A stretch of DNA of 22,231 bases. Source: a virus. The notes under the pieces were generated by a model. The model saw only the letters and a list, made by a program, of their open reading frames with translations, was not told where the DNA came from and did not search any database. Below, piece after piece: positions 384 to 18,190 of this stretch; the stretch's first letter is position 1, and each line of letters starts with the position of its first letter. Position numbers and translations under genes: made by a program. The DNA lies in the IMG/VR virus record IMGVR_UViG_3300037674_001163, positions 1 through 22,231 of that record. One strand, given 5' to 3'.

Positions 384-1513
384 GTTCAGTAGACTATAGT
401 GTATTGAGTAAATTTCTTGATGAAGATAAGTTATCTTTAGATTATCATAAGGTATGTAGTAGTTTAGATAAAATAGAAATAGAAGATGCAGTTGAGATTA
501 TCTTCAAGTATTATAGAAAGAATGGATTCCCACATTATACAATTCGTGAAGAAGAGAAACACGAACAAATAAGAAAGTTACAGAATTTTAAACACGAACA
601 AATACTTGATGGTGATGAGATAACTCAGACAATGAATGGATTGAGGTTGGCTTGGAGTTATTTTCCACAATTTTGGGAAGTTCCTTGTGGTAATGCAAAA
701 ACCACACCAATGGAAAATTTCCACAATGATGACAAGTTGAAAGAGGTTATCAAGAAGACAATTAAATGGCATTACAATCATAGTGATAAACCACATTGGA
801 CAGAGAATAGATTCAGACAGAACATAAAGATATATGGTGGAACACAAACCGTATCTAACTTTCGTCCTACTGCTGCAAAATACATTTATGAAACTTACGG
901 TGGAGATGGAGTTGTTTGGGATATGAGTTGTGGTTGGGGTGGAAGACTATTAGGTGCACTTTCATCTAAAAGAATTAAAAAGTATATTGGTACAGAACCT
1001 TCAACAAAAACATTTGAGGGATTGAATAAGATTAAAGAAGAGTTTAGTTATCTTGGTAAAGAAGTAGAATTACATTGTCTTGGTAGTGAAGTATTTAAAC
1101 CAAAAGAAAAAGTAGATTTATGTTTTACTTCACCACCATATTTTAATACTGAAAAGTATGCAGATGAACCAACTCAAAGTTATATTAAATTTCCAACAGA
1201 ACAAGAATGGATAGATGGATTTTTATTTCAAACTTTACAAAATACTTTTGATTCTACGAAAGATAATGGATATTTATTATTGAATATAGCGAACACTTCG
1301 AGTGGGAAAAATATTGAAAATGGTACTTTAGAAATAGCAAAAAAAATAGGTTATAGTCATATCAACACACTTAAATTAAATTTATCAACAATGGCCAGAG
1401 AAGGTGAGGGTTCAGGTTCAAAGTATGAACCTATCTTTGTATTCAAAAAGGAAAAACATATTGAGAGTAATGTTCCAAATCCATACGGAGATGATGGATG
1501 GGCAACACCATGA
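380..1513 (+). CDS. DNA methyltransferase of TSPPY type (copy 1)
   Basis: A 377-residue protein with the two hallmark SAM-dependent DNA methyltransferase motifs: motif I D-M-S-C-G-W-G-G-R at 181-189 (AdoMet binding) and catalytic motif IV T-S-P-P-Y-F at 250-255. The (T)SPPY form is typical of N4-cytosine enzymes, while DPPY is usual for N6-adenine, so N4-cytosine is the better guess. About 175 residues lie before motif I and may hold target recognition. The C-terminus (Y-E-P-I-F-V-F-K-K) resembles the end of the second methyltransferase at 12351-13580, and motifs I and IV are spaced alike in both. No restriction endonuclease is adjacent, so protection or DNA marking is likelier than a restriction-modification pair. 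It overlaps both neighbours and ends inside the helicase start region. Substrate base and site are unknown. Confidence 0.8.
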   Translation: MSSVDYSVLSKFLDEDKLSLDYHKVCSSLDKIEIEDAVEIIFKYYRKNGFPHYTIREEEKHEQIRKLQNFKHEQILDGDEITQTMNGLRLAWSYFPQFWEVPCGNAKTTPMENFHNDDKLKEVIKKTIKWHYNHSDKPHWTENRFRQNIKIYGGTQTVSNFRPTAAKYIYETYGGDGVVWDMSCGWGGRLLGALSSKRIKKYIGTEPSTKTFEGLNKIKEEFSYLGKEVELHCLGSEVFKPKEKVDLCFTSPPYFNTEKYADEPTQSYIKFPTEQEWIDGFLFQTLQNTFDSTKDNGYLLLNIANTSSGKNIENGTLEIAKKIGYSHINTLKLNLSTMAREGEGSGSKYEPIFVFKKEKHIESNVPNPYGDDGWATP

Positions 1514-2871
1514 GTGAATCATTAATAAAATACGGAACTTCCTTTCAGAGTAAAATTATTTCAAGTTTATTAACTGATGTAAAGTTTGTAAAACAAATTA
1601 TTGATATTCTTGAAGTAAGTTATTTTGATACAGATTCAAATAAATTTTTAGTTAAATCAATTAAGGATTATTTTGTTAAATATAAAACACAACCAACGAT
1701 GGAATCAATAAAAATAATGGTTGATGATGTAGAAAATGATGTATTAAAGGTAGCAATTGTAGATTCATTGAGAGGTGCTTGGCAACATAGAGAAGACCCA
1801 GATTTAGAATTTGTTAAAGAGAAAACATTAGAGTTTTGTAAGAACCAAATAATGAAAAATGCAATCATGCAATCAGTTGAATTATTGGAAACTCAACAAT
1901 ATGACGATATAAAGGGAATTATAGATAAAGCAATGACTGCTGGTATGGAAAGAGATATCGGACACGAATACATTACTGGGTTTGAAGAAAGAATGACAAA
2001 ACAAGCAAGAGATACTCAACCAACTGCATGGGATAGTGTTAATGATTTAATGGATGGTGGTTTAGGTGGTGGAGAACTTGGAGTGATAGTTGCTCCAGCA
2101 GGGATTGGTAAATCATGGACACTACAGGCAATCGGTACACATGCTATGAAAAAAGGATTAACGGTAATTCATTATACATTGGAGTTAAATGCGGCTTATG
2201 TTGGGTTACGATATGATTGTATTATAAGTGGACAACCTACAGGAAATCTTCAGTACTACAAGGATGATGTACAGAGAGCAATTGATAAGTTAAAGGGAAA
2301 TCTTATTATCAAATATTATCCAACGAGAACAGCAAGTGTAAACACAATATTTGCACATTTACAACAATGTGAATTACAAGGAATAAAACCAGATTTGGTT
2401 ATTGTGGATTACGCTGATATTATGAAATCAACATCTAACTTCACAGAAAAAAGACATCAGATTGGGCATGTATATGAAGAGTTAAGAGGTATGGCAGGTG
2501 AGTTTGATATACCGATATGGACAGCTTCACAAGCAAATCGTTCATCATTAGAAGAAGATGTAATTGATGCTAGTAAAGTATCAGAAGATTACTCTAAGGT
2601 TATGACTGCAGATTTTGTAATGAGTATGAGTAGAAAAGTGGAAGATAAGATAGCAAATACAGGTAGATTCCATGTGATTAAAAATAGATTTGGTCCAGAT
2701 GGAATTACATTTCCAGCAACCATTAATACTAATACAGGTTACATACAAATCTATGAAACTAATACACAGGGTGGTAAAGAAGTACAAGGAAAGATGAATA
2801 ATGCTGATGAATATATTAGAAAAACATTAGCACAGAAGAAGAAAGATTTTGACGGAGAAGGATTTGAATAA
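1498..2871 (+). CDS. Replicative DNA helicase, DnaB/T4 gp41-like
   Basis: A RecA-fold hexameric helicase expected to unwind DNA ahead of the phage polymerase. Walker A is A-P-A-G-I-G-K-S at 199-206, and Walker B is L-V-I-V-D-Y-A-D at 300-307. The residues after it (around 340-350, T-A-S-Q-A-N-R) match the sensor segment usual in DnaB-type proteins. The N-terminal 150 residues fit the helical DnaB N-domain. Length (457) is close to T4 gp41 (about 475). Two starts are possible: ATG 1498 has GGAG at 1487-1490 with seven-base spacing, while ATG 1510 forms an ATGA overlap with the methyltransferase stop. I keep 1498 but the second is nearly as good. No primase is seen nearby. A hairpin terminator follows directly at the stop. 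Confidence 0.88.
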   Translation: MGNTMSESLIKYGTSFQSKIISSLLTDVKFVKQIIDILEVSYFDTDSNKFLVKSIKDYFVKYKTQPTMESIKIMVDDVENDVLKVAIVDSLRGAWQHREDPDLEFVKEKTLEFCKNQIMKNAIMQSVELLETQQYDDIKGIIDKAMTAGMERDIGHEYITGFEERMTKQARDTQPTAWDSVNDLMDGGLGGGELGVIVAPAGIGKSWTLQAIGTHAMKKGLTVIHYTLELNAAYVGLRYDCIISGQPTGNLQYYKDDVQRAIDKLKGNLIIKYYPTRTASVNTIFAHLQQCELQGIKPDLVIVDYADIMKSTSNFTEKRHQIGHVYEELRGMAGEFDIPIWTASQANRSSLEEDVIDASKVSEDYSKVMTADFVMSMSRKVEDKIANTGRFHVIKNRFGPDGITFPATINTNTGYIQIYETNTQGGKEVQGKMNNADEYIRKTLAQKKKDFDGEGFE

Positions 2872-3027: not shown

Positions 3028-5037
3028 GTGGAAAAGTTTAAGTTATCAGAAAATTTTATTAATAAGTATAAAAGAAAGAAACCGCCTTTTGGTTTTAATG
3101 GCTTAGGTGAGTTGGTTTATATGAGAACCTATTCCCGTATAAAAGAGAATGGAAAAAATGAGAGATGGTGGGAAACCGTCCAAAGAGTTGTAGAGGGAAC
3201 ATATTCAATGCAATGGAATTGGATTAATTCTCATCAATTAGGTTGGAATCCGTGGCAAGCACAGAAATCTGCACAAGATATGTATGATAGAATATTCAAT
3301 ATGAAATTTTTACCACCTGGTCGTGGTTTATGGGCAATGGGAACAGCAATCACAGAAGAAAAGAAATTATATGCAGCTCTAAATAATTGTGCATTCGTAT
3401 CTACTAAAACACTTAAAGAAGATTACTCAAAACCATTCTGTTTTCTAATGGATGCAAGTATGTTAGGTGTTGGTGTTGGATTTGACTGTAAGGGTGCTGG
3501 TGAAATACTTGTTAAAGGTATAGATAAAGATAGGGATTCAACAATATTTCAGATTCCAGACACAAGAGAAGGTTGGGTAGATTCGTTAAGGTTATTATTA
3601 GAAAGTTATTTTCATGGTTCACACCCAGTAGAGTTTGATTATACAAAGATTAGAGCATTAGGAGAACCAATCAAAGGATTTGGCGGTGTTTCAAGTGGTC
3701 CAGACCCATTAGAAGAAGTTCACGAAGATATAAGAAAAGTATTAGAAAAGAATAGTGGAGAACTAATTACCGTAACTACAATTGTGGATATAATGAACCT
3801 AATTGGTAAATGTGTCGTAGCAGGGAATGTAAGACGAACAGCAGAGATTGTGTTCGGTGATCCCCATGATGATGAATATTTAGATTTAAAAAATTATAAA
3901 GTTAATCCAGACAGAGAACAATATGGGTGGACTTCAAACAATAGTATATTTGCAGAACTTGGTATGGATTATACAGAAGTTTCAAAACGAATCGTAGATA
4001 ATGGAGAACCTGGTTTAGCTTGGTTAGAAAATATGAGGAAATTTTCTCGTATGCAAAATGGTGGAGATAATAAAGACCATAGAGTTGCAGGTGGAAATCC
4101 TTGTTTAGAACAATCATTAGAAAGTTATGAGTTATGTTGTTTAGTAGAAACATTTCCAAACAATCACGACTCATTAGAGGACTATCAAAGAACACTTAAA
4201 TATGCTTATCTGTATGCTAAAACGGTAACACTTGGTAGAACTCATTGGAGTGATACAAATAGAGTTATGTTGAGAAATAGAAGAATTGGATGTAGTGTTA
4301 GTGGAGTTGCACAATTCATTACTAATCATGGATTAGATAAATTAAAAACTTGGTTAGAAGATGGATATGATGTTATACAAGAATGGGATAAATTATATTC
4401 TGATTGGTTCGCCATACCAAAATCAATTAAAACCACAAGTGTAAAACCAAGTGGAACGGTTTCATTATTAGCAGGAGCAACTCCAGGATTACATTATCCC
4501 GAAAGTCGTTTCTATATTCGGAGAGTAAGATTATCAAATCAATCTGAATTAATAGAACCATTGAAAAAAGCAGGTTATAAGTTAGAGCCAGCATTTGGTT
4601 CGGAGAATACAACTATGGTTGTAGATGTTCCAGTAGATGTTGGTGAAGGTATAAGAACTGCGGCTGAACTTTCGATTTGGGAACAATTCAGTTTAGCCGC
4701 ATTCTTACAACGACATTGGGCAGATAACCAAGTTAGTTGTACGGCAACATTCAATCCTGAAACAGAAGCTGAAGAACTACCATATGTATTGAATTATTTT
4801 CAATATAGATTAAAAGGAATTTCATTATTACCAAGACATGATTATGGAGCTTACAAACAAATGCCATATGAAGCAATAGATGAGAAAACTTATAATAAAC
4901 AATTAAAAAAATTAAAACCTCTTTCATTTGGTGTAATTAAAAATGAAGAGGCTGAAATAGATAAATTTTGCAATAATGATTCATGCGAGATTCAACCATT
5001 AAGTGGAGATAACGATGATCAAGATTATGCAAACTAA
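3028..5037 (+). CDS. nrdJ: Class II adenosylcobalamin-dependent ribonucleotide reductase
   Basis: Reduces ribonucleotides to deoxyribonucleotides using coenzyme B12 instead of a separate radical subunit. It fits the single-chain RTPR type (669 residues; Lactobacillus RTPR is somewhat longer). Visible signatures: N-N-C at 119-121 (first redox cysteine), N-P-C-L-E at 357-361 (radical cysteine C359 and catalytic E361), S-V-K-P-S-G-T-V-S at 471-479 (phosphate-binding loop), and a C-terminal C-x4-C pair (C648, C653) on a flexible tail as used for re-reduction by thioredoxin. All catalytic residues appear present, so it should be active without a beta subunit. Such enzymes suit a phage because they work with or without oxygen but need host cobalamin. 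The GTG start is supported by AGGAG. It stands first in the auxiliary block, behind its own leader. Confidence 0.92.
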   Translation: MEKFKLSENFINKYKRKKPPFGFNGLGELVYMRTYSRIKENGKNERWWETVQRVVEGTYSMQWNWINSHQLGWNPWQAQKSAQDMYDRIFNMKFLPPGRGLWAMGTAITEEKKLYAALNNCAFVSTKTLKEDYSKPFCFLMDASMLGVGVGFDCKGAGEILVKGIDKDRDSTIFQIPDTREGWVDSLRLLLESYFHGSHPVEFDYTKIRALGEPIKGFGGVSSGPDPLEEVHEDIRKVLEKNSGELITVTTIVDIMNLIGKCVVAGNVRRTAEIVFGDPHDDEYLDLKNYKVNPDREQYGWTSNNSIFAELGMDYTEVSKRIVDNGEPGLAWLENMRKFSRMQNGGDNKDHRVAGGNPCLEQSLESYELCCLVETFPNNHDSLEDYQRTLKYAYLYAKTVTLGRTHWSDTNRVMLRNRRIGCSVSGVAQFITNHGLDKLKTWLEDGYDVIQEWDKLYSDWFAIPKSIKTTSVKPSGTVSLLAGATPGLHYPESRFYIRRVRLSNQSELIEPLKKAGYKLEPAFGSENTTMVVDVPVDVGEGIRTAAELSIWEQFSLAAFLQRHWADNQVSCTATFNPETEAEELPYVLNYFQYRLKGISLLPRHDYGAYKQMPYEAIDEKTYNKQLKKLKPLSFGVIKNEEAEIDKFCNNDSCEIQPLSGDNDDQDYAN

Positions 5038-5063
5038 GATTTCACATACCCGAATAGGCAGTT

Positions 5064-5087
5064 GACGCACCTATGAAAAAATGCGTC
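5064..5087 (+). terminator. Stem-loop between RNR and TonB receptor genes
   Basis: GACGCA (5064-5069) and TGCGTC (5082-5087) form a perfect six-base stem with a 12-base A-rich loop. There is no T-run after it; instead an A/C-rich stretch (CAAAC repeated three times, 5089-5101) leads to the receptor SD. It could be a weak terminator, an RNA processing site or a 5' stabiliser. Confidence 0.35.
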
Positions 5088-5101
5088 TCAAACAAACAAA
5101 C

Positions 5102-5108
5102 AGAGGAG
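5102..5108 (+). promoter_or_regulatory. Strong ribosome binding site of the TonB receptor
   Basis: AGAGGAG, seven bases before ATG 5116, in an unstructured A/C-rich leader. It is among the best SD matches in the window and suggests high translation of the receptor. Confidence 0.7.
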
Positions 5109-5115
5109 ATTATAA

Positions 5116-7923
5116 ATGAAAAAAAATAATCTAATATCTGTATTTTTAACAATGATGATGCCAATGTTCTTATATGGGCAGGTAGTCGGAACAGTTACAG
5201 ATACAGAAAAGAACCCATTGATTGGGGCTGATATTGTAGTACAAGGAACTGATTTAGGTACATCTGCTGATGCAGATGGAGCTTACTCTATTGATTTAGG
5301 GGCAGGAACTTATACAATTAAAGCTTCTTCAATTGGATATGCATCTCATACAGTAGAGGTTGAAGTGGTAGAGGGAACGGCTAGTACCGTAGACTTCTCA
5401 CTTTTAATATCTGCACTTGAGATGTCTGCACTTGAAGTTTTAGCTTCAAGGGCTGATGATAAAACACCTGTTGCTTATACTACAGTTAGTAAAGAAGAAA
5501 TTGAATTTCGTCTTGGTTCACAAGACTTACCAATGTCTTTAAATACTACACCAAGTGTATATGCTACGCAACAAGGTGGGGGTGCGGGTGATGCCCGTAT
5601 CAATGTTCGCGGGTTTAATCAGAGGAATGTAGCAGTAATGATAAACGGAGTTCCACAAAACGATATGGAAAACGGTTGGGTCTATTGGTCTAACTGGGAT
5701 GGAGTTGCAGATGCAGCTCAATCTATCCAGATGCAGCGTGGATTAAGTGCCGTTAACTTGGCTGCCCCCTCAATTGGTGGTACGATGAACATAATCACAA
5801 ATCCTGCTTCCGCTTCAAAAGGTGGTAAGTTTAAACAGGAAGGTGGTGCAGGGGGTTTTCTGAAAACCACATTGAATTACAATTCAGGACTTATTGGTGA
5901 TAAATTCGCCCTAAGTGGTACTGTAGTTCGTAAAACAGGTGATGGTGTCATTGACAAGACATGGACAGACGCTTGGGCATATTATTTTGGTTCAAGTTAT
6001 CAAGTAAATGCTGACCATCGATTGGAATTATATGCAATCGGTGCTCCACAGCGACATGGACAAAATCTATACAAACAGAATATCGGTGCTTATGACGCTG
6101 ATTTTGCTGCAAGTGTAGATGGATATGATACTGAAGCACTTGGTGAAGATGGTAAGTTCGCAGATGTAGGACATAAGTTTAATCAAAACTGGTCACCAGT
6201 TGACCCATCATATAAAGGTAAACAATACTGGTATATGTATGGTGTAGGTGGACTTTTTGATAGTGGACTACAAGATAGACACGCAAGTGATTATCTAAAC
6301 GAAAGAGAAAACTACTTTCACAAACCATTAGTAAATCTAAATCATTTTTGGACAATAGATGATAAGACAAGTTTAAGTTCAGTCTTTTATTGGTCAGGTG
6401 GTTCTGGTGGTGGAACAGGAACTTATGGTAAGATTCCTACATTTGATGCTGATGGTAATCTTGGTGATGATGACTATAAATTTTATTATGGTCGTGGTCC
6501 CTGGACTCGTGATTGGAATAGTCTTATAGCATATAATTCTGGAGATGATTCAGTAGTATATGTTGATAAGAAAGCTCTTACACGAACACATGGTGTTGAT
6601 AATAATCAATCAGTTGGTATTCTTCGTAATAGTATCAATCGTCAAAATACTTATGGTGTAATTTCTAAACTTAATTACGATATTAGTGATGAGTTTAAGT
6701 TACAAGTAGGTATTGATTGGAGAACCGCAGGTATAGAACACGCACGAGAAGTTCGTGATTTATTAGGTGGAGATTATTATTTGGATTTTGCTGATGATAA
6801 CGCACCAGATGGTAAAAGAGTTGGGTTAGGTGATATAATCGCTTATCACAATGAAACTACCGTTGATTGGTTGGGTGGATTTGTACAAGGTAATTATAGT
6901 AAAGATAATCTAAATCTATATGGTATGGGTGGATTATCAAGTATTAAATATTCTTACCAAGACCACTTTTCAGTTGCTGATAAAGTAATAGAAGCTGATG
7001 CTATCTATGCTGCTCAGTTCAAAGGTGGAGCAATGTACGACATAGATGATAATGTTAGTCTTTTTGCTAACATTGGATATGTTGAAAAACCACCTATCAT
7101 GGATAATGTGATTTACTTTGATGGTACGGTTGCTTCTGATCCAAATAATGAAAGTTTCATTAGTTCAGAAGCTGGTGTCAATTTCGAATCTGAAAGATTT
7201 GCTGTTAAGGCAAATGTTTACAATACAGATTGGAAAGACAGAAACCTTACTAAAGCAGTAACCACAGGACAAGGTGATTCAGGTGATACTGATGTCATTT
7301 TCTTAACAGGTATTCAACAAAAACATCAAGGACTTGAGATTGAAGCTTCTACACAACTACATAAATTGGTTCGTTTAGATGCAGCAGTAAGTCTTGGTAC
7401 TTGGAAGTTTGATGGTGATGCTCATGGAAAGTATCAATCAAATGAATATGATGAAAACGGTAATGTAACTGGTTTAACCACTACAGATTATCAATACGCC
7501 CTTGACGGGTTGAATGTTGGTGATATGCCACAGACTTCATATGCACTTGGTGCAACCATTTTTCCTGTAAAGGGATTAGTAATTTCAGCACTATGGAATT
7601 CTTATGATAAGAACTATAGTGATTGGAGTCCTGATTCTCGTGAATACGATGGTTCAGATGAAGATGCAGACAGAGAACAAGTATGGGAAGCACCATCTTA
7701 TTCAAAGGTGGACTTACATGCTTCATATCAACTACCAGTTAGTGGATATGACATATCTTTATTTGCTCATGTGTTTAACGCATTAGACGAAACATATGTA
7801 CAAGATGCAGTAGATCATAGTCAATACAATAGCTATGGGAGTAAAACTCACTCAGCACATAATGCTGAAGTATTTCTTGGTACACCAAGATACTTTAACT
7901 TAGGGTTAAGTGTTAATTTCTAA
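5116..7923 (+). CDS. TonB-dependent outer membrane receptor with carboxypeptidase-like N-domain
   Basis: A complete 935-residue outer membrane transporter. Residues 1-21 are a signal peptide (two Lys, hydrophobic core, likely cut before Q22). Residues 23-93 match the carboxypeptidase regulatory-like domain (G-T-V-T-D, P-L-I-G-A, G-A-Y-S-I, S-S-I-G-Y). A linker is followed by the plug domain (about 115-230: I-N-V-R-G-F-N, M-I-N-G-V-P, G-G-T-M-N-I-I-T). The rest is beta-barrel, ending in aromatic N-F as needed for outer membrane assembly. Such proteins import siderophores, cobalamin, glycans or other large nutrients by TonB energy, and also serve as phage receptors. The N-terminal add-on domain is typical of Bacteroidota and related phyla. 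The substrate is not readable from sequence. The gene is intact, has a strong SD and lies between stem-loops, like a moron acquired from a host. Its plug-coding part is more GC-rich than the surroundings. Confidence 0.9.
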   Translation: MKKNNLISVFLTMMMPMFLYGQVVGTVTDTEKNPLIGADIVVQGTDLGTSADADGAYSIDLGAGTYTIKASSIGYASHTVEVEVVEGTASTVDFSLLISALEMSALEVLASRADDKTPVAYTTVSKEEIEFRLGSQDLPMSLNTTPSVYATQQGGGAGDARINVRGFNQRNVAVMINGVPQNDMENGWVYWSNWDGVADAAQSIQMQRGLSAVNLAAPSIGGTMNIITNPASASKGGKFKQEGGAGGFLKTTLNYNSGLIGDKFALSGTVVRKTGDGVIDKTWTDAWAYYFGSSYQVNADHRLELYAIGAPQRHGQNLYKQNIGAYDADFAASVDGYDTEALGEDGKFADVGHKFNQNWSPVDPSYKGKQYWYMYGVGGLFDSGLQDRHASDYLNERENYFHKPLVNLNHFWTIDDKTSLSSVFYWSGGSGGGTGTYGKIPTFDADGNLGDDDYKFYYGRGPWTRDWNSLIAYNSGDDSVVYVDKKALTRTHGVDNNQSVGILRNSINRQNTYGVISKLNYDISDEFKLQVGIDWRTAGIEHAREVRDLLGGDYYLDFADDNAPDGKRVGLGDIIAYHNETTVDWLGGFVQGNYSKDNLNLYGMGGLSSIKYSYQDHFSVADKVIEADAIYAAQFKGGAMYDIDDNVSLFANIGYVEKPPIMDNVIYFDGTVASDPNNESFISSEAGVNFESERFAVKANVYNTDWKDRNLTKAVTTGQGDSGDTDVIFLTGIQQKHQGLEIEASTQLHKLVRLDAAVSLGTWKFDGDAHGKYQSNEYDENGNVTGLTTTDYQYALDGLNVGDMPQTSYALGATIFPVKGLVISALWNSYDKNYSDWSPDSREYDGSDEDADREQVWEAPSYSKVDLHASYQLPVSGYDISLFAHVFNALDETYVQDAVDHSQYNSYGSKTHSAHNAEVFLGTPRYFNLGLSVNF

Positions 7924-7934
7924 AAAGTAGAGTT

Positions 7935-7982
7935 TGGGGGGCTTGGTGATAAGTAAGCTTAACTAAGTTATCTTGCTCCCCA
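7935..7982 (+). terminator. Long hairpin after the TonB receptor gene
   Basis: TGGGGGGC (7935-7942) pairs with GCTCCCCA (7975-7982), with one G-T wobble. An inner GATAA/TTATC pair and a small AAGCTT palindrome lie in the loop. This is by far the most GC-rich stem among the intergenic regions. The sequence after it (CTTTATTA) is only partly T-rich, so termination may be partial, which would leave some transcript for the glutamine synthetase gene 25 bases on. Confidence 0.6.
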
Positions 7983-7989
7983 CTTTATT

Positions 7990-8007: not shown

Positions 8008-9000
8008 ATGCATAAATTAGAATATCTTTGGTTGGATGGTAGTAGTCCAACACAGATTAGAAGTAAGACAAAAATAGTAAAAGAAATCGGTAAAAATGAA
8101 GAAGCTCCAATATGGGGATTCGATGGTAGTTCTACAAATCAAGCAGAAGGACATAATTCTGATTGTGTGTTGAAACCAGTAAGAGTTTATAAAAATCCAT
8201 TGGAAGCTTTCGACAATGGTTCAATAGTTTTATGTGAAGTGTGGAATGTAGATGATACACCACACCCAACAAATACAAGAAGAATGTTAGAAGAAACCAT
8301 TATAGATATAGAAGATGATATTGATGAATGGGTAGGTTTTGAACAAGAATATACCTTATATGAAAACAATAAACCATATGGATGGCCAGAAGTAGGAGAA
8401 CCACCACCACAAGGTGATTACTATTGTGGTAGAAACATTGGTGAAAACATTATGAAAGAACATACGGACTCTTGTATTTATGCAGGGGTGAATATATGTG
8501 GAACAAACGCAGAAGTGATGTTAGGGCAATGGGAATACCAAATCGGTGAAGGTGGTTCAATTCATATGAGTGATGATTTATGGGTTGCTCGTTGGTTAAT
8601 GGAAAGAATTTGTGAACAGAATAATTTATCAGTTTCATTGGATCCAAAACCAATAGAAGGTGATTGGAATGGTGCAGGTTGTCATACCAATTTTTCTACC
8701 AAGTATACGAGAGGACATGGTGGAGATGAATTTATATTTAAAGCTTGTATGGATTTAGAAAAGGTTCATAAAGAACATATGGAAGTTTATGGAAAAGGAA
8801 ACGAAAGACGATTAACAGGACTACACGAAACTCAAGCAATAGATACATTCAGTTGGGGAGTTTCAGATAGAGGAGCATCCATTCGTATTCCTTGGCAAGT
8901 AGATAAAGATAAATGTGGTTATTTAGAAGATAGAAGACCATCATCAAACTGTGATCCTTATATTGTTTCACAAAAATTAGTTGAAACTATTTGTAAATAA
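8008..9000 (+). CDS. Glutamine synthetase, type II (eukaryotic-type)
   Basis: Makes glutamine from glutamate, ammonia and ATP in the cytoplasm. Length (330) is that of GSII enzymes (rhizobial GlnII is about this size) and not the ~470 of bacterial GSI. Seen motifs: W-G-F-D-G-S-S-T at 36-43, metal-binding F-E-Q-E-Y at 111-115, G-T-N-A-E-V at 165-170 and G-Q-W-E-Y at 173-177, D-W-N-G-A-G-C-H-T-N at 219-228, R-L-T-G-L-H-E at 268-274, and Y-L-E-D-R-R-P-S-S-N at 305-314. All metal and substrate positions I can place are kept, so it should be active. GSII lacks the GSI adenylylation control, so a phage copy could escape host nitrogen regulation. Glutamine feeds purine and CTP synthesis, which fits its place beside RNR. 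The SD lies in a hairpin loop. Confidence 0.92.
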   Translation: MHKLEYLWLDGSSPTQIRSKTKIVKEIGKNEEAPIWGFDGSSTNQAEGHNSDCVLKPVRVYKNPLEAFDNGSIVLCEVWNVDDTPHPTNTRRMLEETIIDIEDDIDEWVGFEQEYTLYENNKPYGWPEVGEPPPQGDYYCGRNIGENIMKEHTDSCIYAGVNICGTNAEVMLGQWEYQIGEGGSIHMSDDLWVARWLMERICEQNNLSVSLDPKPIEGDWNGAGCHTNFSTKYTRGHGGDEFIFKACMDLEKVHKEHMEVYGKGNERRLTGLHETQAIDTFSWGVSDRGASIRIPWQVDKDKCGYLEDRRPSSNCDPYIVSQKLVETICK

Positions 9001-9003
9001 GGC

Positions 9004-9032
9004 TTGACTATTATAAAAAAAAGTGTTATATT
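9004..9032 (+). promoter_or_regulatory. Sigma70-like promoter for the DNA polymerase gene
   Basis: TTGACT (9004-9009), a 17-base spacer, and TATATT (9027-9032), in the 61-base gap between glutamine synthetase and polymerase. Each hexamer is one mismatch from, or close to, the bacterial consensus (TTGACA, TATAAT), and spacing is ideal. The predicted transcript starts near 9039, just ahead of the SD at 9048. Confidence 0.7.
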
Positions 9033-9061: not shown

Positions 9062-11560
9062 TTGTATCAATCAATATATTTTGAAATGAGAAAGCAGAAA
9101 ATTCATCTGTGGGATGATAAAAGGGGTTATTTAGTAATCCCATATAAAAAATACGCTTATATAAAAAATTCAACAGGACAACACTTTACACTTGATGGTG
9201 ATAAAGTTAAAAAGATTTTCCAATGGGAAGATAACACTCCTGGTTTACACGAAAGTGATGTACCACAAACTACAAGATTTTTAGTTGACCAATATATGGA
9301 TTCAGATGAACCATCCATTGGAAATAGAAAAGTATTTTTTGATATTGAGGTAGAGGTTACAGAGGGATTTCCTGATCCAATGAAAGCTCCAAATAAAATA
9401 ACTTCAATTTCATTATATGACGAGATAACTAAGACATATTTTGCGTATGTGTTGGATGAGAAAAAACAAATTCAGAATTATACAAAAGATAATCAGATAG
9501 TTGAGTTTTATATTACAGAGTATGAAATGTTAACTTCATTTTATAGAAAATATTCGGAAATACAACCAACAATATTAAGTGGGTGGAATAGTGATAGTTT
9601 TGATATTCCTTATTTATATAATCGTTCAGTAAGAGTATTGGGTAAAGATGTAGCAACTATGTTATCACCAATTGGACAAATTTTTTATAGTGAATACAAG
9701 AAAAAGTATACTATTGCTGGTGTTAATCAAATGGATTATTTACATTTATATAGAAAGTTCTCACCCATCCAACAATCAAGTTATCGTTTAGATTACATTG
9801 GTGAAAAAGAAGTTGGTATGAAAAAAATTGAATATGAAGGAACTCTTAATGATTTATATGATAAAGATTTACAGAAGTTTGTAAATTATAATATTCGAGA
9901 TGTTCAAATACTCGTGGAATTAGATGAAAAATTGGATTTCATTGATATTGCTCGTGGTATAGCTCATATTGGTCATGTACCATATGAAGATGTGTTTATG
10001 AGTTCAAGATATTTAGAGGGAGCTATCTTAGTATATCTGAAAAAGATTGGTGTGGTGGCACCCAATAAACCACCAAGACCTAAAAAGATTGAAGATAAAT
10101 TTGCAGGTGCTTATGTACAATCACCACAACGAGGTAGACACGAGTGGGTATTTGATTTAGATATTACATCAATGTATCCAAGTGTTATTCGTAGTTTAAA
10201 CATTTCACCAGAAACCAAGATTGGTAAGGTTGAAGAGTGGGATGCAAATAATTATATAAAAAAATCTCATAAACAAACATATCAAGTTAAAAATAGGAAT
10301 GGAAAAGAGGTTGGTAAATTATCTGAAATAGAATTAAAAGATTATTTAGAAAGTCAAAAAATAAGTATATCAAGTAATGGTATAATGTATCGTACAGATA
10401 GACAAGGATTGATTCCAGCACTATTAACAAAGTGGTTTAATGAACGAGTAGAGATGAGAAAACTTGTAAAGAAGTTTCATGAACAAGGTGATACTAAAAA
10501 ACAAGAATACTTTGATAGACGACAATATCTACAGAAGATTCTATTAAACTCATTATATGGTGTATTGGGTTTACCAGTATTTAGATTTTATGATATTGAT
10601 AATGCTGAAGCAACCACACTTACAGGTCAATCATTGATTAAGTTCAGTAAGAAGATTACTAACCACTTTTATAATAAAGAGTTAGGTACAGATAAGGATT
10701 ATGTTATCTATATTGATACAGATTCTATTTTCGCATCCGCAGTACCATTGATTGAACATAGATTTCCAAATGAGAAACTATCTGAAACAATGATGACACA
10801 ACGAATTATGGAAGTGTGTGGTGAAGTACAAGACTATTTGAATCAAAGTTATGATTTCTTTTCTAAGAAGTTTCTTAATGTTGATAAACACGAGTTTGAT
10901 ATCAAACAAGAAGTTATTGCTAAAACAGCATTGTTTATTGTTAAGAAAAGATATGGATTAAATATTATTAATGATGCTGGTAGAAAAGTGAATAAGATAC
11001 AAGTAAAAGGATTAGATACAGTTCGTAGTAATTTTGCAGTAGCTATGAAAGACTTATTAAGTAAAGTTTTAGAAGATATATTGGCAAAAGTACCAAAAGA
11101 AAAAATTGATGAGAGAATATCAATATTCAAAAGAAATATGCACAATCTATCTTATGATGTAATGGCAAATCCTATCGGTGTAAAGGGTATTGGTAAGTAT
11201 ATTGAAAGAGATGAAGAGAGTTCATTTGCTAAATACAAGAAAGGTGCTCCTGTTCATGTTAAGGCGGCTATAAATTACAATTCATTATTAGATTATTGGT
11301 ACGAGGGTAGAAAATATGAAAAGATATCCAACGGAACAAAGATACGATGGGTTTATTTAAAAGATAATGAGTTTGGATTTGATACCATAGCTTATAAGGG
11401 GTATGAAGACCCAAAAGAAATTTTAGATTTAATCAAAAATAAGATAGATAGTAGTAGAATGTTCGAGCAGGCTATGAGTAAAAAACTTGGTATGTTCTAT
11501 GAAAGTATGGGTTGGGAAGCAGTAGTTGACAAACAACAATCTATTGAAAGATTTTTTTGA
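9062..11560 (+). CDS. Family B DNA polymerase with proofreading, T4 gp43-like
   Basis: The replicative polymerase, 832 residues (T4 gp43 is about 900). Exonuclease motifs: Exo I F-D-I-E-V-E with D94 and E96, Exo II N176 to D181 (W-N-S-D-S-F-D), Exo III Y276 to D280. Polymerase motifs: A D-I-T-S-M-Y-P-S at 367-374, B K-I-L-L-N-S-L-Y-G at 492-500, C I-D-T-D-S at 551-555. All catalytic acidic residues are present for both activities, and no intein interrupts motifs A to C. The last eight residues, Q-Q-S-I-E-R-F-F, form a textbook PIP-box, so the tail should dock on the clamp encoded just downstream. Start is TTG with a GGAG; a sigma70-like promoter precedes the gene. It stands alone between two promoters, so it can be expressed separately from the clamp genes. 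Confidence 0.95.
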   Translation: MYQSIYFEMRKQKIHLWDDKRGYLVIPYKKYAYIKNSTGQHFTLDGDKVKKIFQWEDNTPGLHESDVPQTTRFLVDQYMDSDEPSIGNRKVFFDIEVEVTEGFPDPMKAPNKITSISLYDEITKTYFAYVLDEKKQIQNYTKDNQIVEFYITEYEMLTSFYRKYSEIQPTILSGWNSDSFDIPYLYNRSVRVLGKDVATMLSPIGQIFYSEYKKKYTIAGVNQMDYLHLYRKFSPIQQSSYRLDYIGEKEVGMKKIEYEGTLNDLYDKDLQKFVNYNIRDVQILVELDEKLDFIDIARGIAHIGHVPYEDVFMSSRYLEGAILVYLKKIGVVAPNKPPRPKKIEDKFAGAYVQSPQRGRHEWVFDLDITSMYPSVIRSLNISPETKIGKVEEWDANNYIKKSHKQTYQVKNRNGKEVGKLSEIELKDYLESQKISISSNGIMYRTDRQGLIPALLTKWFNERVEMRKLVKKFHEQGDTKKQEYFDRRQYLQKILLNSLYGVLGLPVFRFYDIDNAEATTLTGQSLIKFSKKITNHFYNKELGTDKDYVIYIDTDSIFASAVPLIEHRFPNEKLSETMMTQRIMEVCGEVQDYLNQSYDFFSKKFLNVDKHEFDIKQEVIAKTALFIVKKRYGLNIINDAGRKVNKIQVKGLDTVRSNFAVAMKDLLSKVLEDILAKVPKEKIDERISIFKRNMHNLSYDVMANPIGVKGIGKYIERDEESSFAKYKKGAPVHVKAAINYNSLLDYWYEGRKYEKISNGTKIRWVYLKDNEFGFDTIAYKGYEDPKEILDLIKNKIDSSRMFEQAMSKKLGMFYESMGWEAVVDKQQSIERFF

Positions 11561-12351: not shown

Positions 12352-13580
12352 TGTACCTATCTTACTTTGATAAGTTCTATGATATGGAGCCTTATCTTTC
12401 AATAGAAGAGAAAGAATGGGAATACATAAAGAACACCTTTGAAAAACAAGATGTACGAGAAAGTCTTGCAAAAGTTGCAATGACATATCCACCACCATAC
12501 ATGAACATTTCAGAAAATGGAGCATACAAAGAGTTACAGAAACTTAAAGGTATGAGACATAATGATTTATTGGTAGATGGTGAGTGGTTTGCACGAGAGG
12601 GTACAAAGTATCGTTATGATTTAACATTCGAAGGTAAACAACAATACTTTAAACGAATCAATACAGGTAACGCTTCAAGTAATTACTTTCAACAAGAAAA
12701 TCGATGGAGTGTGGATGGAACAATAGCACCAGGACCAATTAGAACTTGGGGTAGTTATAAGTTTATGACTACATTAATGGGTGCCGCATATACTTTAAAA
12801 CTTCCCAAAATAAATAAGGGTGCTCTTAGAGTTATGATAAGTTTGAGAAAGTACATTTGTTCACAGTTTAAACCAAATGTGGCAAAAGTACTATACGATA
12901 AGTTAGGTAGTGAAAACATATTAGATTTTAGTGCAGGTTGGGGTGATAGATTAGCAGGATTCTATGGTAGTGAAAGTGGTAAGTATTATCTTGGAATAGA
13001 TCCAAGAAAAGAAAACCATCCTATCTACAGAGAACAAAAAGAGTTCTATGAAAAACATAGAAATATGTTTTTTGAAGTCGATAAGGATTGTGAATTTATT
13101 GAATCCCCCGCAGAGGATGTGGACTTTAAAGTGTATGAAAATATGTTTGATACCGTATTTACATCACCACCATATTTTTCAGTAGAAAGATATAGTTATG
13201 AAGATACTCAAAGTTGGGTACGATATAAAGAAATAGATGATTGGAATAAAAACTTTTTACAGAAAACTATTGAAAATTTATGGGTTTCTATTAAGAGTGG
13301 TGGATATTTATTAGTGAATATTGCTGATGTATTTGCTAGAACTGGAACACAAAGAAATATGGTAGAGATTTGTAATCCTATGAATGATTTTTTATCAACA
13401 TTTAGTGATTCAGAGTATCAAGGTTGTATTGGAATGGAAATGGCTAAACGACCAAATAGTGGTGGAGCAGGAATGGCAAGAGCATCAGATGAAAGGTTTC
13501 ATGGCTCTACGATTAAGAAGGCAGAAGAAACCAAAGATAAAAGATTTTGTGAACCAATTTGGATTTGGAAAAAGTTATAA
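12351..13580 (+). CDS. DNA methyltransferase of TSPPY type (copy 2)
   Basis: A 409-residue AdoMet-dependent enzyme paralogous in layout to the one at 380-1513. Motif I is D-F-S-A-G-W-G-D-R at 192-200, and motif IV is T-S-P-P-Y-F at 271-276. The end (C-E-P-I-W-I-W-K-K) parallels E-P-I-F-V-F-K-K of copy 1. The stretch before motif I also aligns loosely (F-K-P-N-V-A-K here, F-R-P-T-A-A-K there). The SPPY form suggests N4-cytosine methylation, but base and site are not proven. It has no SD of its own: it starts on the clamp stop (TAATG) and ends on the clamp loader start (TAATG), so translation of all three should be tied. This place inside the replisome operon suggests methylation of newly made phage DNA, an inference. 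Confidence 0.8.
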   Translation: MYLSYFDKFYDMEPYLSIEEKEWEYIKNTFEKQDVRESLAKVAMTYPPPYMNISENGAYKELQKLKGMRHNDLLVDGEWFAREGTKYRYDLTFEGKQQYFKRINTGNASSNYFQQENRWSVDGTIAPGPIRTWGSYKFMTTLMGAAYTLKLPKINKGALRVMISLRKYICSQFKPNVAKVLYDKLGSENILDFSAGWGDRLAGFYGSESGKYYLGIDPRKENHPIYREQKEFYEKHRNMFFEVDKDCEFIESPAEDVDFKVYENMFDTVFTSPPYFSVERYSYEDTQSWVRYKEIDDWNKNFLQKTIENLWVSIKSGGYLLVNIADVFARTGTQRNMVEICNPMNDFLSTFSDSEYQGCIGMEMAKRPNSGGAGMARASDERFHGSTIKKAEETKDKRFCEPIWIWKKL

Positions 13581-14503
13581 TGGAAGAAATTAAAAATAGT
13601 TTATGGGTAGAAAAGTATCGGCCTTCAAACCTTGACACTTACATTGGAAATGAACATCTAAAGAGTAAGGTTAAGGTTTATCTGGAGAGTGGCGACTTAC
13701 CACATCTTTTACTGTACGGAAGAGCTGGTACAGGTAAGACCACTCTCGCAAAACTACTTGTTAATAATATAGATTGTGATTATCTATATATTAATGCATC
13801 AGATGAGAATAGTGTAGAGATAGTTAGAGATAAAGTAAAGAACTTTGCCTCAACACTTGGGTTTGCAGAGATGAAGATTATCATTTTAGATGAGTGTGAT
13901 TACATCACACCAAATGCACAGGCAGCACTTCGTAACTTGATGGAAACATTTAGTAAACATTGTAGATTCATTCTAACCTGCAATTTCGTAGAGAGAGTTA
14001 TAGACCCAATTCAATCGAGATGTCAATCTTTTCAAATTATACCACCAGATAGGAAACAAGTTGCACTTCATGTTTCAAATATTTTACAGAATGAAAAGGT
14101 GGATGCAACAGTAGATGACATTGTAACGATAGTTAATGGTGGTTATCCAGATATAAGAAGAGTTATAAATTCTATACAACGACAAGTTGTAAATGGTAAA
14201 CTTGTTATTGATGAGGGAATGGCAATACAGAATGACTACAAGAACCAAGTATTAGATATTTTAAAAACACAAGATAAAAAGAATTCGTTTAAAAACATTA
14301 GACAAGTATTGGCAGATTCCAAAATAACAGACTTTAGTGATTTATTTAGATTACTATTTGACACAGTAGATGATTGGGGTAGAGGTCATGTTGCAGAATG
14401 TATTTTAACATTAAGTCAATATCAACAAAGTGATGCTATAGTAGTGGATAAAGAGATTAATATTATGGCTATGTTCGTTGAGGTAATTGGAAAAATAAAA
14501 TGA
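13580..14503 (+). CDS. Clamp loader ATPase large subunit, T4 gp44/RFC-like
   Basis: A 307-residue AAA+ ATPase that opens the sliding clamp and loads it at primer ends. It opens with W-V-E-K-Y-R-P (9-15), the RFC-family signature. Walker A is G-R-A-G-T-G-K-T-T at 47-55, Walker B I-I-L-D-E-C-D at 101-107, the arginine-finger S-R-C at 146-148, and sensor 2-like P-D-I-R-R at 190-194. Length matches T4 gp44 (about 319). The frame is open seven codons upstream (TTG 13559), but ATG 13580 makes a TAATG junction with the methyltransferase stop and puts W-V-E-K-Y-R-P at its usual place, so I chose it. No gp62-like partner gene follows. Instead a radical SAM gene overlaps its stop as ATGA. Confidence 0.92.
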   Translation: MEEIKNSLWVEKYRPSNLDTYIGNEHLKSKVKVYLESGDLPHLLLYGRAGTGKTTLAKLLVNNIDCDYLYINASDENSVEIVRDKVKNFASTLGFAEMKIIILDECDYITPNAQAALRNLMETFSKHCRFILTCNFVERVIDPIQSRCQSFQIIPPDRKQVALHVSNILQNEKVDATVDDIVTIVNGGYPDIRRVINSIQRQVVNGKLVIDEGMAIQNDYKNQVLDILKTQDKKNSFKNIRQVLADSKITDFSDLFRLLFDTVDDWGRGHVAECILTLSQYQQSDAIVVDKEINIMAMFVEVIGKIK

Positions 14504-15657
14504 GAAAAGGATTTTGTGTAGCTCCATTCAGGAATGCAGAATTCTTTCATGATGGAAAAGTATGGCAATGTGTTTCAGGTGGATGGAGTGAGGAAGAAAA
14601 AAGATGGGTTAATGCATGGATAACTTGTGGCCCTTCTGGAAATTCTTTAGAAGATGAATGGGATGATATTTGGAATGGTGAAGTTGCACAAAAATTAAGA
14701 CAATCAATGCATGATGGTGATTTTAAGTATTGTGATTCAACTGAATGTGGATTTTTAAATCGATGGTATAATGAAGATGTAGATGAAACCATATATGATA
14801 ATGGATATTTTCCAATTTATGATGAGAGTACTTTTCATAAATTATGGAATGCAAAAGAAATAAATCCTAATGGTGAAGAGAAGTGGAAGAAAATTATATC
14901 TGAAAAGATGGTAAAGTTGCCGTGGGGTCCAGAATGTGTTATATTTTCACATGATAGAAGTTGTAATTTGAAATGTCCAAGTTGTAGATTAGATTATATA
15001 CAGACAACGGGAAAAGAAAGAGAGAACTCAGAGAAAATACAAAAGGTAATATTGTGTGATGCTATGGATGACGCAAATGAACTTTATATTACTGCAAGTG
15101 GAGATGGATTCGGTGGAGAGTTTTGGAGAAATCTTTTAAAGTCTATTAATATGGAAAAATATCCCGATACACGAAATTTACATTTACATACAAATGCAAA
15201 TGGGTGGACTAAAAAGATGTGGAATAGTTTAAGTAATTTACATGATATACCACGAATAACTGCTGAAATTAGTATTGATGCGTGTACTGAAGAAACTTAT
15301 AATAAAATTAGAGTAGGTGGTAAGTGGAAAACATTACATAAGAATTTACATTTTATATTTACAGAAATACCAAATTTAGATTTTGTACGAATGACATTTG
15401 TAGTACAAGATAATAATTATAAAGAAATGGTAGGGTTTATAAAGATGTCAGATTATTTTCAGAAATTAAATAATATGAGAACGGAAGTTAATTTTATACA
15501 TATAAATAATTGGGGAACTTTTACAGAAAATGTTTGGAAAACAAAAAATATAAATAATAAAAGCCATTCAGAATATAAAGATTTTATAAGTGAAATAGAA
15601 AATGTAAAATCTTTACGAAATAAATATAAAAATTTAGAAATATACACAAATATATAA
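14500..15657 (+). CDS. Radical SAM protein with N-terminal SPASM-like region
   Basis: A 385-residue predicted radical enzyme. The radical SAM cluster motif is C-N-L-K-C-P-S-C (C155, C159, C162), followed by a glycine-rich S-G-D-G-F-G-G (200-206) expected near the SAM site. Ahead of it, residues 1-90 carry C6, C24, C43, C78 and C83 in a pattern like SPASM/Twitch auxiliary cluster domains (A-P-F, then D-G-K-V-W-Q-C, then D-I-W-N, then Y-C-D). SPASM normally sits at the C-terminus, so this order is unusual. SPASM enzymes modify peptides or sugars; the substrate here is unknown. It starts by ATGA overlap with the clamp loader but looks like the first gene of a different functional cassette. The 3' part is clearly more AT-rich than the replication genes. 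Confidence 0.78.
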   Translation: MRKGFCVAPFRNAEFFHDGKVWQCVSGGWSEEEKRWVNAWITCGPSGNSLEDEWDDIWNGEVAQKLRQSMHDGDFKYCDSTECGFLNRWYNEDVDETIYDNGYFPIYDESTFHKLWNAKEINPNGEEKWKKIISEKMVKLPWGPECVIFSHDRSCNLKCPSCRLDYIQTTGKERENSEKIQKVILCDAMDDANELYITASGDGFGGEFWRNLLKSINMEKYPDTRNLHLHTNANGWTKKMWNSLSNLHDIPRITAEISIDACTEETYNKIRVGGKWKTLHKNLHFIFTEIPNLDFVRMTFVVQDNNYKEMVGFIKMSDYFQKLNNMRTEVNFIHINNWGTFTENVWKTKNINNKSHSEYKDFISEIENVKSLRNKYKNLEIYTNI

Positions 15658-16429: not shown

Positions 16430-18190
16430 ATGGCAGATTATAATAAAACGATATATAGTGGTTCTTTACGAGACAAAAGTTTAGAAGTTGCTAATCTTTT
16501 TACACAGAGTGTTCATTGGGATGGAGAGCAAAACAATGAGGGTATTTTGGGTATGTATGATTGGGTGGCATCCGATGGTGATATATATTTAGCAGAAATA
16601 AATACTAATTTAAGAATGAGAAATATAGATACTAATTGGGTAGATTTTGATGCATTAAATACTTTTTTAGGTAGTGGTGGTTATAATAAACTTTGTGTTG
16701 TTTGTGATAATACTGAAGTTGGAGCAAAACCACAAGATGGATTTTTAACACATTTGAGTTCAAGTTTATCTTCTGCTGATATAGAATATGAGAAAATATT
16801 AGTAGACCCATATCCAGTTGTTATCCCAGAAATTTCTTCATCTGATGCTAATGTTTTTGTGATGAAAATATCTTATGATACTGATAATTCAATTGGTGAG
16901 TATTCAGCAAATAAATTGAGTTTTAATAATTATGTAAGCTCTTCTGGACTATATAGTTATCAACCAAGAAAATATGCAGATTTACCATCAGATTTTAGTA
17001 ATGGAGCAGGTGTTCCAGATGTTGTGGTGAAATCCCCCAATACAGATTTAAAAAGGGGTAATTCTTTTCTTGATTTAAATGATGCTACTACTGGTTCACT
17101 TTCAGATTATGTTAATTCAGGATCTGTAGTGGAAGAATATATTGTTCCAGATGTAATTGTAGGTTCATTACAAACAGATGTTATTCGAGGGTTGGTTTTA
17201 CACACATCTTCTTCAAGTGTTTACTTAACTTCAGATTCATCTAATTTAAGAGGATACTCATGTAGAAAAACACCAGTTGCTAGTGGTAGTAATGAGTATA
17301 AAATAAATTATCTACATAACCCTGATACTTTTATTGAGGGAACACCAATTAGAATGCATGATGGTAGTAGTAAAGATGTTGAAGACATTCAAATTGGAGA
17401 CATTGTATCATCTTATAATATTCCTGGACAACCAGAAGATACAGCAGGCCCATTTCAATTAAGTAATATGTGGAGTTGGTCAACTTCATCTATAGAGAAT
17501 GCTGAACTTACAAGTTCAGTTGTAACTGGATGGGGAAGTGATGAATTAGATCAATATTATCTTATTAATAGTTCATATAAAATAGGAACTGGGGCATCAC
17601 TTTTTGTAAAATCTGGTTCAGAGTATTGTTTTAAACTGCCTGAATATGTTGAGACTGGAATGAAAATTTTAAGTAGTTCTGAAGAAGAAATTAATATAGA
17701 TAGTATATCATTAGTGAGTGAAACAACTACTTTTTATTCCTTAGATGTTGAAGAAATAGATACATACTTTGGTTCAGATATTCTTGTTCATAATTTACCA
17801 CCATGTTTTGTTGGTGGAACACAAATTCAAATGCATGAAGGAGTAAAATCTATTGAAGAGGTAGAGATAGGTGATATTGTTAAATCATTTGATGTAGGAA
17901 CAAGTTCAGTTGTTGATTCTAAAGTAACAAAAACATATGTACATACTGATAGATATTATATGATTTTAAATGGAAATATTAAAACTACTTCTGTTCATCC
18001 ATTTTATACTGATGGTAAGTGGGTAGAGGCTGGTGATTTATCAATTGGAGATAAAATACTTCATGTAGATGGATTGGAACATACAATTGAAACTATTGAG
18101 TTGAGTGATGAACAGGTTACTGTATATAACTTTGAGGTAGATGGAACACACAATTATTATGCTGAGGGTTATTTAGTGCATAATAAATAA
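16430..18190 (+). CDS. Protein with two tandem Hint (hedgehog/intein) domains
   Basis: A 586-residue protein. Residues about 1-298 are a Ser/Asp-rich domain I cannot name firmly; short pieces (L-A-E-I-N-T-N at 54-60, V-V-V-K-S-P at 198-203, V-V-E-E-Y-I at 233-238) recall ATP-grasp proteins. Hint 1 spans about 300-455 and Hint 2 459-585, joined by only L-P-P. Hint 2 has every catalytic mark: C459 at position 1 in C-F-V-G-G-T, T-S-V-H (520-523) for block B, and terminal H584-N585, followed only by Lys. Hint 1 has Thr300 in place of the cysteine and T-G-A-S in place of T-x-x-H, but keeps V-H-N at its end. So one copy seems active and one degenerate. With no C-terminal partner to splice, Hint 2 might cleave or attach the N-terminal part. 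AAGGA (16417-16421) is the SD. Confidence 0.78.
   Translation: MADYNKTIYSGSLRDKSLEVANLFTQSVHWDGEQNNEGILGMYDWVASDGDIYLAEINTNLRMRNIDTNWVDFDALNTFLGSGGYNKLCVVCDNTEVGAKPQDGFLTHLSSSLSSADIEYEKILVDPYPVVIPEISSSDANVFVMKISYDTDNSIGEYSANKLSFNNYVSSSGLYSYQPRKYADLPSDFSNGAGVPDVVVKSPNTDLKRGNSFLDLNDATTGSLSDYVNSGSVVEEYIVPDVIVGSLQTDVIRGLVLHTSSSSVYLTSDSSNLRGYSCRKTPVASGSNEYKINYLHNPDTFIEGTPIRMHDGSSKDVEDIQIGDIVSSYNIPGQPEDTAGPFQLSNMWSWSTSSIENAELTSSVVTGWGSDELDQYYLINSSYKIGTGASLFVKSGSEYCFKLPEYVETGMKILSSSEEEINIDSISLVSETTTFYSLDVEEIDTYFGSDILVHNLPPCFVGGTQIQMHEGVKSIEEVEIGDIVKSFDVGTSSVVDSKVTKTYVHTDRYYMILNGNIKTTSVHPFYTDGKWVEAGDLSIGDKILHVDGLEHTIETIELSDEQVTVYNFEVDGTHNYYAEGYLVHNK

Follow-up and report, generated by a model that had tools for sequence, protein, structure and literature searches.

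Phages can specify outer-membrane proteins of their own, as exemplified by the lambdoid phage porins, such as Lc of PA-2, which can change the cell surface during infection or lysogeny. Receptor genes such as btuB are under riboswitch control, and preQ1-I and other small pseudoknot riboswitches accommodate an H-type fold with an A-rich loop 3 in about 34 nt. The SAR406 clade (Marinimicrobia) is an uncultured bacterial phylum that ranks with the most abundant of its kind in deep and low-oxygen seawater; to our knowledge, little is known of its phages. In the open-access literature, the only phage-encoded TonB-dependent receptor (TBDR) that we found is in the megaphage Mar_Mega_1, a putative TBDR (SusC) proposed to raise carbohydrate uptake (Michniewski et al. 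2021, PMC9723777); an earlier description may exist elsewhere. The operator of T4 gene 32 consists of a pseudoknot and then an unstructured segment with the ribosome-binding site (PMC535899). T4-like phages are also known to carry mobile regulatory cassettes termed PeSLs, as far as PMC4503421 recounts the work of Arbiol 2010 and Comeau 2014.

Here we analyze a TBDR gene in a 22,231-base IMG/VR record, the whole of which is hereafter called the window (Table 1). On balance, we favor the explanation that a SAR406 TBDR was captured once by phages and has been kept as a working importer, in a mobile cassette controlled by a pseudoknot.

The receptor and its genomic neighborhood

A preliminary description, made by reading the window, had credited the gene with a signal peptide, a carboxypeptidase-like domain, a plug, a full-length barrel, a terminal Phe and a strong Shine-Dalgarno sequence (SD). 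Most of this is borne out: the N-terminus, MKKNNLISVFLTMMMPMFLYGQ, resembles a signal peptide and the C-terminus, ...LGLSVNF, ends in Phe, both as read from the sequence; Pfam recovers the CarbopepD_reg_2/CarboxypepD_reg and plug (PF07715, 59 bits against a cut-off of 23.9) domains; and the SD, AGAGGAG, lies 7-8 nt 5' of the ATG. The conserved ALEVLASRADEKTPVAYT segment before the plug is a candidate TonB box, assigned by position. The barrel, which Pfam does not recognize even at E<=1, was modelled with AlphaFold2 from a 56-row alignment (mean pLDDT 74.8, pTM 0.72), and all of the top 50 among the PDB matches listed by Foldseek are TonB-dependent outer-membrane transporters. The strand count of the modelled barrel is uncertain: the model lists 24, one hairpin probably lying inside a loop, as against a 22-strand barrel. 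We predict that the phage-encoded protein resides in the outer membrane. A structure search of viral proteins returned a single strong match, a protein from an uncultured marine phage that is annotated as TonB-dependent receptor SusC and is 11% identical. Membership of the SusC/RagA family was rejected, as NCBIfam TIGR04056 scores 60 bits against a cut-off of 368 and covers the N-terminal part only. No SusD-like partner was seen among the Pfam-annotated genes of the window, or in the neighborhoods of the host copies, which were checked by sequence inspection only.

Table 1. Features of the window around the receptor gene (parts of the receptor in residues)
Feature	Position	Strand	Basis
DnaB-like replicative helicase (T4 gp41 type context)	1498..2871	+	Pfam, PHROG
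Class II adenosylcobalamin-dependent ribonucleotide reductase (RNR); upstream gene, first docking site of the cassette	3028..5037	+	Pfam RNR_Alpha/RNR-II_ins_dom, PHROG 367
34-nt H-type RNA pseudoknot of the TBDR leader	5054..5087	+	comparative pairing
Pseudoknot stem S1	5054-5058/5070-5074
Pseudoknot loop L1	5059-5063
Pseudoknot stem S2	5064-5069/5082-5087
Pseudoknot loop L3 (A-rich)	5075-5081
Shine-Dalgarno AGAGGAGA, downstream of an A-rich, G-poor spacer	5102..5109	+	leader sequence
TonB-dependent receptor (TBDR), 935 aa, ATG start	5116..7923	+	ORF, Pfam, AlphaFold2 model, PDB matches
TBDR parts: signal peptide; CarboxypepD_reg; TonB-box/linker; plug; barrel; C-terminal Phe	signal peptide, then 22-104; ~101-118; 115-223; ~235-935; C-terminal residue
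Terminator-like hairpin closing the cassette at its downstream end; stem of a G-run and a C-run with a T-rich tail behind it	7927..7988 (about)	+	fold
GlnII-type glutamine synthetase, second optional cargo of the RNR-polB interval	8008..9000	+	433 bits vs cut-off 500
Sigma70-like polB promoter, TTGACT-17-TATATT	9004..9032	+	conserved in relatives
T4-like family B DNA polymerase (polB)	9062..11560	+	Pfam, PHROG
Clamp loader subunit	13559..14503	+	PHROG 168

The upstream RNR also matches NCBIfam TIGR02505 (354 bits, cut-off 340). The GC content of the first half of the TBDR gene is ~0.40 as against ~0.32 in its surroundings. Terminator-like scores recur downstream of the gene in 49 of 56 distinct phage regions and in all 45 host copies. 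The glutamine synthetase of the window is missing from three loci (L003, L004 and L036) that are 99% identical to it elsewhere, and in L186 and L194 it lies upstream of the TBDR. TonB and ExbBD were not found within the window; import would therefore depend on the persistence of the host TonB. Farther along, positions 16430-18190 specify a 586-aa protein with a C-terminal Hint/intein-like domain (PT-HINT), weakly similar to a virion structural protein family. Two regions (14500-15657 and 19866-21995) code for SPASM and radical SAM proteins; two 2OG-Fe(II) oxygenases and a GNAT acetyltransferase are encoded nearby, and the set is possibly a modification or glycan-type cargo.

Occurrence on phage contigs

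A scan of the viral contigs of IMG/VR found relatives of the TBDR encoded on 311 stretches, of which the best 80 (63-100% identity) were retained and alone entered the trees; the contigs are fragments. Among these best 80 of 311, 67 full-length copies adjoin homologs of RNR or polB and 12 full-length viral copies do not. A second set of 80 loci was picked by RNR so as to avoid selection by the TBDR itself: in 55 the TBDR directly follows the RNR, usually ~80 nt on, in 15 the RNR is followed by polB without a TBDR, six have glutamine synthetase only and four end first. The T4 major capsid protein gp23 is encoded on the same contig as the TBDR in L010 (131.8 kb), along with a tail sheath and a major head protein, and in L064 (80 kb); the remaining TBDR contigs, most of them far shorter than a T4-like genome, gave no gp23 match. 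Many uncultured T4-like ocean phages carry an intact TBDR. Annotated phage genomes yielded distant TBDRs only, the best at 31% identity.

Two side observations concern individual contigs. On that of L064 (G008:C1 35435-39959), the RNR matches fall in three separated pieces in adjacent frames, which suggests inteins or insertions. In L078, a sequence that looks like a tRNA gene lies just 3' of the TBDR stop (from 12728 on).

Origin in the Marinimicrobia

The non-phage relatives of the TBDR come almost exclusively from Marinimicrobia/SAR406 genomes and MAGs. The viral copies examined form one clade inside the Marinimicrobia copies, with a support of 100 in FastTree (125 copies) and 99 in IQ-TREE (49 copies), and their sister relation to one host group has a support of 93 and 97. 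The preliminary description had proposed as a check that phage copies should form a clade nested in one host phylum and recur with the same neighbors, and this is the pattern found, with RNR as the recurrent neighbor in the RNR-picked loci (55/80). A strong ortholog is present in 37 of 100 sampled genomes of the phylum, as a single copy in all but one. In the hosts, it is surrounded by conserved housekeeping genes, namely dnaG, cvpA, yqeY, a YedK-like gene and lon. From these relationships among sequences, we infer that the TBDR was captured once from SAR406 and that members of this phylum are the likely hosts of the phages, the host assignment being based on the TBDR phylogeny.

A few contigs show labels at odds with their content. 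The gene order of L095 (labeled Flavobacteriales) and L131 (labeled Euryarchaeota) is that of the phages, and both are probably phage contigs that were misbinned. L103, a 4.3-kb Marinimicrobia MAG contig (1-4266), has a TBDR inside the phage clade with a leader lacking the pseudoknot described below, and may be a re-acquired host gene or a misbinned phage.

A mobile cassette with two docking sites

The TBDR also occupies a second docking site, after the genes for an Hsp20 and a membrane-protein-like family (fam26), on contigs that carry phage baseplate genes and no RNR. On three further contigs (L071, L175 and L202), the TBDR is at the RNR site and fam26 has no adjacent TBDR. In nine pairs of close TBDRs drawn from different sites, nucleotide homology of 78-95% identity covers the leader (~50-100 nt), the gene and up to ~50 nt beyond, and then stops; the tree requires at least seven changes of docking site. 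Losses are also apparent: some related phages lack the TBDR, and in L212 (~4400-4520) the end of the RNR (...NDDQEVST and stop) is joined to the last TBDR codons (frame PRSFNLGLSVNF and stop) and the TBDR terminator. The join bears the shared word ACCAAGA, a microhomology read by eye, and is a deletion scar left by TBDR loss.

The gene is hence host-derived, carried on phage genomes, not needed for the virion or replication and variably present, as is characteristic of auxiliary metabolic genes or morons. The moron-like character put forward earlier stands insofar as the gene is an accessory one that moves together with a leader and a terminator of its own; no clear sigma70 promoter of its own was seen in 5038-5115. 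At the TBDR-polB junctions of 14 loci, a stem-loop terminator is followed by an early promoter.

Other genes on second-site contigs include QueE, QueC and FolE-like genes near the docking site in L059 (G007:C1 39379-42600), placing a 7-deazaguanine pathway in the same phages, and signal-peptide-like proteins without Pfam or NCBIfam matches in L158 (9546-10859) and L163 (14063-15043).

A conserved pseudoknot in the leader

Stem-loops had been noted on both sides of the gene. Both exist; the upstream one is only half of a conserved H-type pseudoknot, with the consensus ACAGGCAGnnGACRCACCUGUnnAAAAAUGYGUC and interleaved S1 and S2 helices. It is present in 222 of the 224 viral TBDR loci that extend far enough upstream, by an anchor that leaves S2 and the outer S1 pairs unconstrained and in counts that include near-identical contigs; of the two other leaders, that of L063 has the pseudoknot with a shorter loop 1 and that of L216 is degenerate. 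Distinct sequences number 109 for the leader and 65 for the core, with 61 cores of standard length. In these 61, all 610 cells of the 10 pairs are standard pairs, with compensatory changes at five of the 10 pairs and 48 cells changed on both sides. None of 500 shuffles reached the observed percentage paired or covariation score, and slid controls were 20-55% paired. The outermost A-U pair of S1 is not kept in every leader, and 17 bases are invariant. Wobbles in the helices are G-U in the sense strand only and never A-C, from which we conclude that the structure probably acts as RNA rather than DNA. The pseudoknot lies 24-32 nt from the ATG in 99 of 103 distinct leaders, across a spacer that is rich in A (55%) and poor in G (6%); none of its pairs involves the SD.

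The linkage to the TBDR is tight. A pattern scan of viral contigs gave at least 80 loci, with the TBDR directly downstream in 80 of 80 among the matches listed; a variant with a pyrimidine at S2 position 4 had no matches in the same contigs. The element is absent from 149 Marinimicrobia genomes and from the host TBDR leaders. A sequence-free scan of 352 kb of phage DNA for the same geometry recovered TBDR leaders only, with 1.0 expected by simple shuffling. Rfam 15, which includes preQ1-I, returned nothing relevant at E<=10 in 4900-5300 and nothing at gathering score in the whole window. As judged from these comparisons, the pseudoknot is previously undescribed and linked exclusively to this TBDR gene.

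A further conserved word, TTYCRCATAC (window ~5040-5050, TTTCACATACC; TTTCACATAC), lies 3' of the upstream gene and 5' of the pseudoknot in both docking contexts, and similar words are found in some host TBDR leaders (L085, L093 and L100). TTTCACATAC was considered as a genome-wide repeated motif and discarded, as it is not enriched elsewhere in the phage contigs.

Possible roles of the pseudoknot

At its nearly fixed distance from the start codon, the pseudoknot probably sets the timing or amount of receptor translation: from about this position, a bound protein or ligand could impede or promote the loading of the 30S subunit, much as at the operator of T4 gene 32. We tentatively propose that it represents a new class of regulatory RNA, either a riboswitch or a protein-operated switch, that senses the ligand of the receptor or the state of the infection and so would let the virus meter nutrient import. 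By analogy with btuB and its riboswitch, a small-molecule switch that reports the imported ligand is possible.

An alternative to a ligand sensor is a protein-bound operator of the T4 gene 32 kind, in which the phage single-stranded DNA-binding protein would bind the pseudoknot together with the unstructured A/U-rich ribosome-binding region and tie receptor synthesis to DNA replication. The layout is that of the T4 operator (PMC535899), a pseudoknot upstream of an unstructured ribosome-binding site, with the A-rich spacer and near-constant distance to the ATG given above; a gp32 homolog is encoded on six of 10 contigs, and gp32 leaders have similar UUAACAAU-type spacers. However, the leaders of gp32 itself appear, by eye, to form a plain hairpin rather than this pseudoknot, no second pseudoknot of its geometry occurs in the 352 kb of phage DNA, and A-rich leaders are common in these phages. 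On balance, we regard such an operator as unlikely, if worth retaining.

Selection and function of the receptor

The dN/dS ratios (Nei-Gojobori) are 0.08-0.27 among phage copies and 0.08-0.14 among host copies. Identity in the plug is 92% within the phages and 92% within the hosts, and that of the TonB-box region is 0.77 in phages versus 0.79 in hosts; no column, at the thresholds used, holds a fixed residue difference between host and phage. Such constraint indicates that the phage copies are functional, or were so until recently. Identity in the extracellular loops is 0.69 between phages, 0.57 between hosts and 0.59 between phage and host, where the loop limits come from a model of moderate confidence and overall diversity may be lower in the phage set. 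The conserved plug and TonB box and the lack of loop diversification make import of the same ligand more likely than a decoy that diversifies.

The three functions initially offered were feeding of the infected cell, replacement of a blocked host receptor and a change in superinfection; of these, feeding is the better supported, and we found no positive evidence for the last. Under superinfection control or receptor replacement, the phage's own host-like TBDR would change which phages adsorb to the infected cell, or would soak them up, much like the lambdoid porins. TBDRs are common phage receptors, the Foldseek matches include FhuA with T5 pb5 and with the superinfection-exclusion lipoprotein Llp, phages exchange the cassette among themselves, variability in the protein is highest in loop L4 (439-500), and conserved loops would also be expected were the protein conserved as a phage receptor. 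Yet the loops are no more variable in phages than in hosts, no residue class separates the two, and the TonB box and plug, which a passive decoy could do without, show the same conservation as in hosts, rendering this function improbable.

The importer could conceivably supply a corrinoid to the adenosylcobalamin-dependent RNR directly upstream, given that the RNR is of class II and the two genes are adjacent in so many of the RNR-picked loci. This is very doubtful: the cassette also sits at the Hsp20-fam26 site on contigs without RNR, RNR-polB loci without the TBDR are common, BtuB ranks only 43 among the fold matches, no cobalamin riboswitch was found by Rfam in the window and the host copies lack B12 neighbors. 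Nor did fold comparison point to a specific ligand, although a structural search had been named as a possible source of one: Fiu, PqqU/YncD, FhuA and many siderophore receptors head the matches to the TBDR model at 11-14% identity. The host neighborhood was likewise discarded as a guide, since the ortholog lies among housekeeping genes outside any uptake operon.

Finally, an assembly chimera of phage and host DNA, the scenario named at the outset as fatal to the idea, or host contamination or misclassified host contigs, has a negligible chance of being true: in its favor are the host-like nature of the gene and the mixed labels of a few MAG contigs (L095, L131 and L103), but the same cassette recurs in independent assemblies from many samples at two phage sites, with the phage-specific leader in 222/224 loci and hallmark genes such as gp23 on the same contigs.

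A proposed scenario and its significance

In the scenario that we favor, an ancestor of a T4-like phage group infecting Marinimicrobia would have captured a chromosomal TBDR once. The resulting cassette of pseudoknot leader, SD, gene and terminator-like hairpin would then have passed between phages, docking at the tail of phage operons, mostly behind RNR but in some cases behind Hsp20-fam26. During infection, the TBDR is probably co-transcribed with nucleotide-synthesis genes and would add a receptor to the outer membrane, where it could use the host TonB/ExbBD so that its native ligand keeps entering while host gene expression is shut down; when or how much of it is translated would be under the control of the pseudoknot. 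The import, its timing, the host phylum and the RNA-level control are all offered as likely components of this scenario.

If so, these viruses control what an infected cell takes up, and the reprogramming of SAR406 cells by their phages, whose likely host the TBDR marks, reaches the outer membrane and not just central metabolism. It also becomes testable which transport function merits 2.8 kb to a phage. The pseudoknot, being compact, fully covarying, invariant at 17 bases and exclusive to one gene, qualifies as a strong candidate for a new class of regulatory RNA, and a 31-nt pattern derived from it provides a DNA-level tag for locating these phages in any metagenome.

Comparison with known systems

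The chromosomal ortholog of Marinimicrobia shares 60-71% identity over the full length, with the same domains and loop motifs, but lies by the dnaG/cvpA or lon regions behind a leader without the pseudoknot. The pseudoknot resembles preQ1-I and the other small pseudoknot riboswitches in its ~34 nt, H-type fold and A-rich loop 3; it differs in lacking both a match to Rfam at E<=10 and an unpaired loop 2 ahead of S1, and in not sequestering the SD. With the T4 gene 32 operator it shares an H-type pseudoknot 5' of an unstructured ribosome-binding region (PMC535899), whereas its gene, sequence and loop 1 are different, it is far more conserved and it does not precede gp32 here. As to the PeSLs, insofar as PMC4503421 describes them, the TBDR-polB junction is similar in its terminator hairpin followed by an early promoter and in cargo genes that come and go; by the same account, the TBDR differs in that inter-site homology spans the whole gene and the pseudoknot leader, which is unique in the genome rather than repeated.

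Among phage genes for outer-membrane proteins, the lambdoid porins are trimeric porins of temperate phages, whereas the present gene specifies a TonB-dependent transporter of apparently lytic T4-like phages. A further parallel is the putative TBDR of the marine phage Mar_Mega_1 (PMC9723777). That receptor is annotated as SusC and belongs to a megaphage; the one described here falls below the SusC cut-off, is found in T4-like phages, forms one clade in hundreds of contigs and is preceded by a pseudoknot leader.
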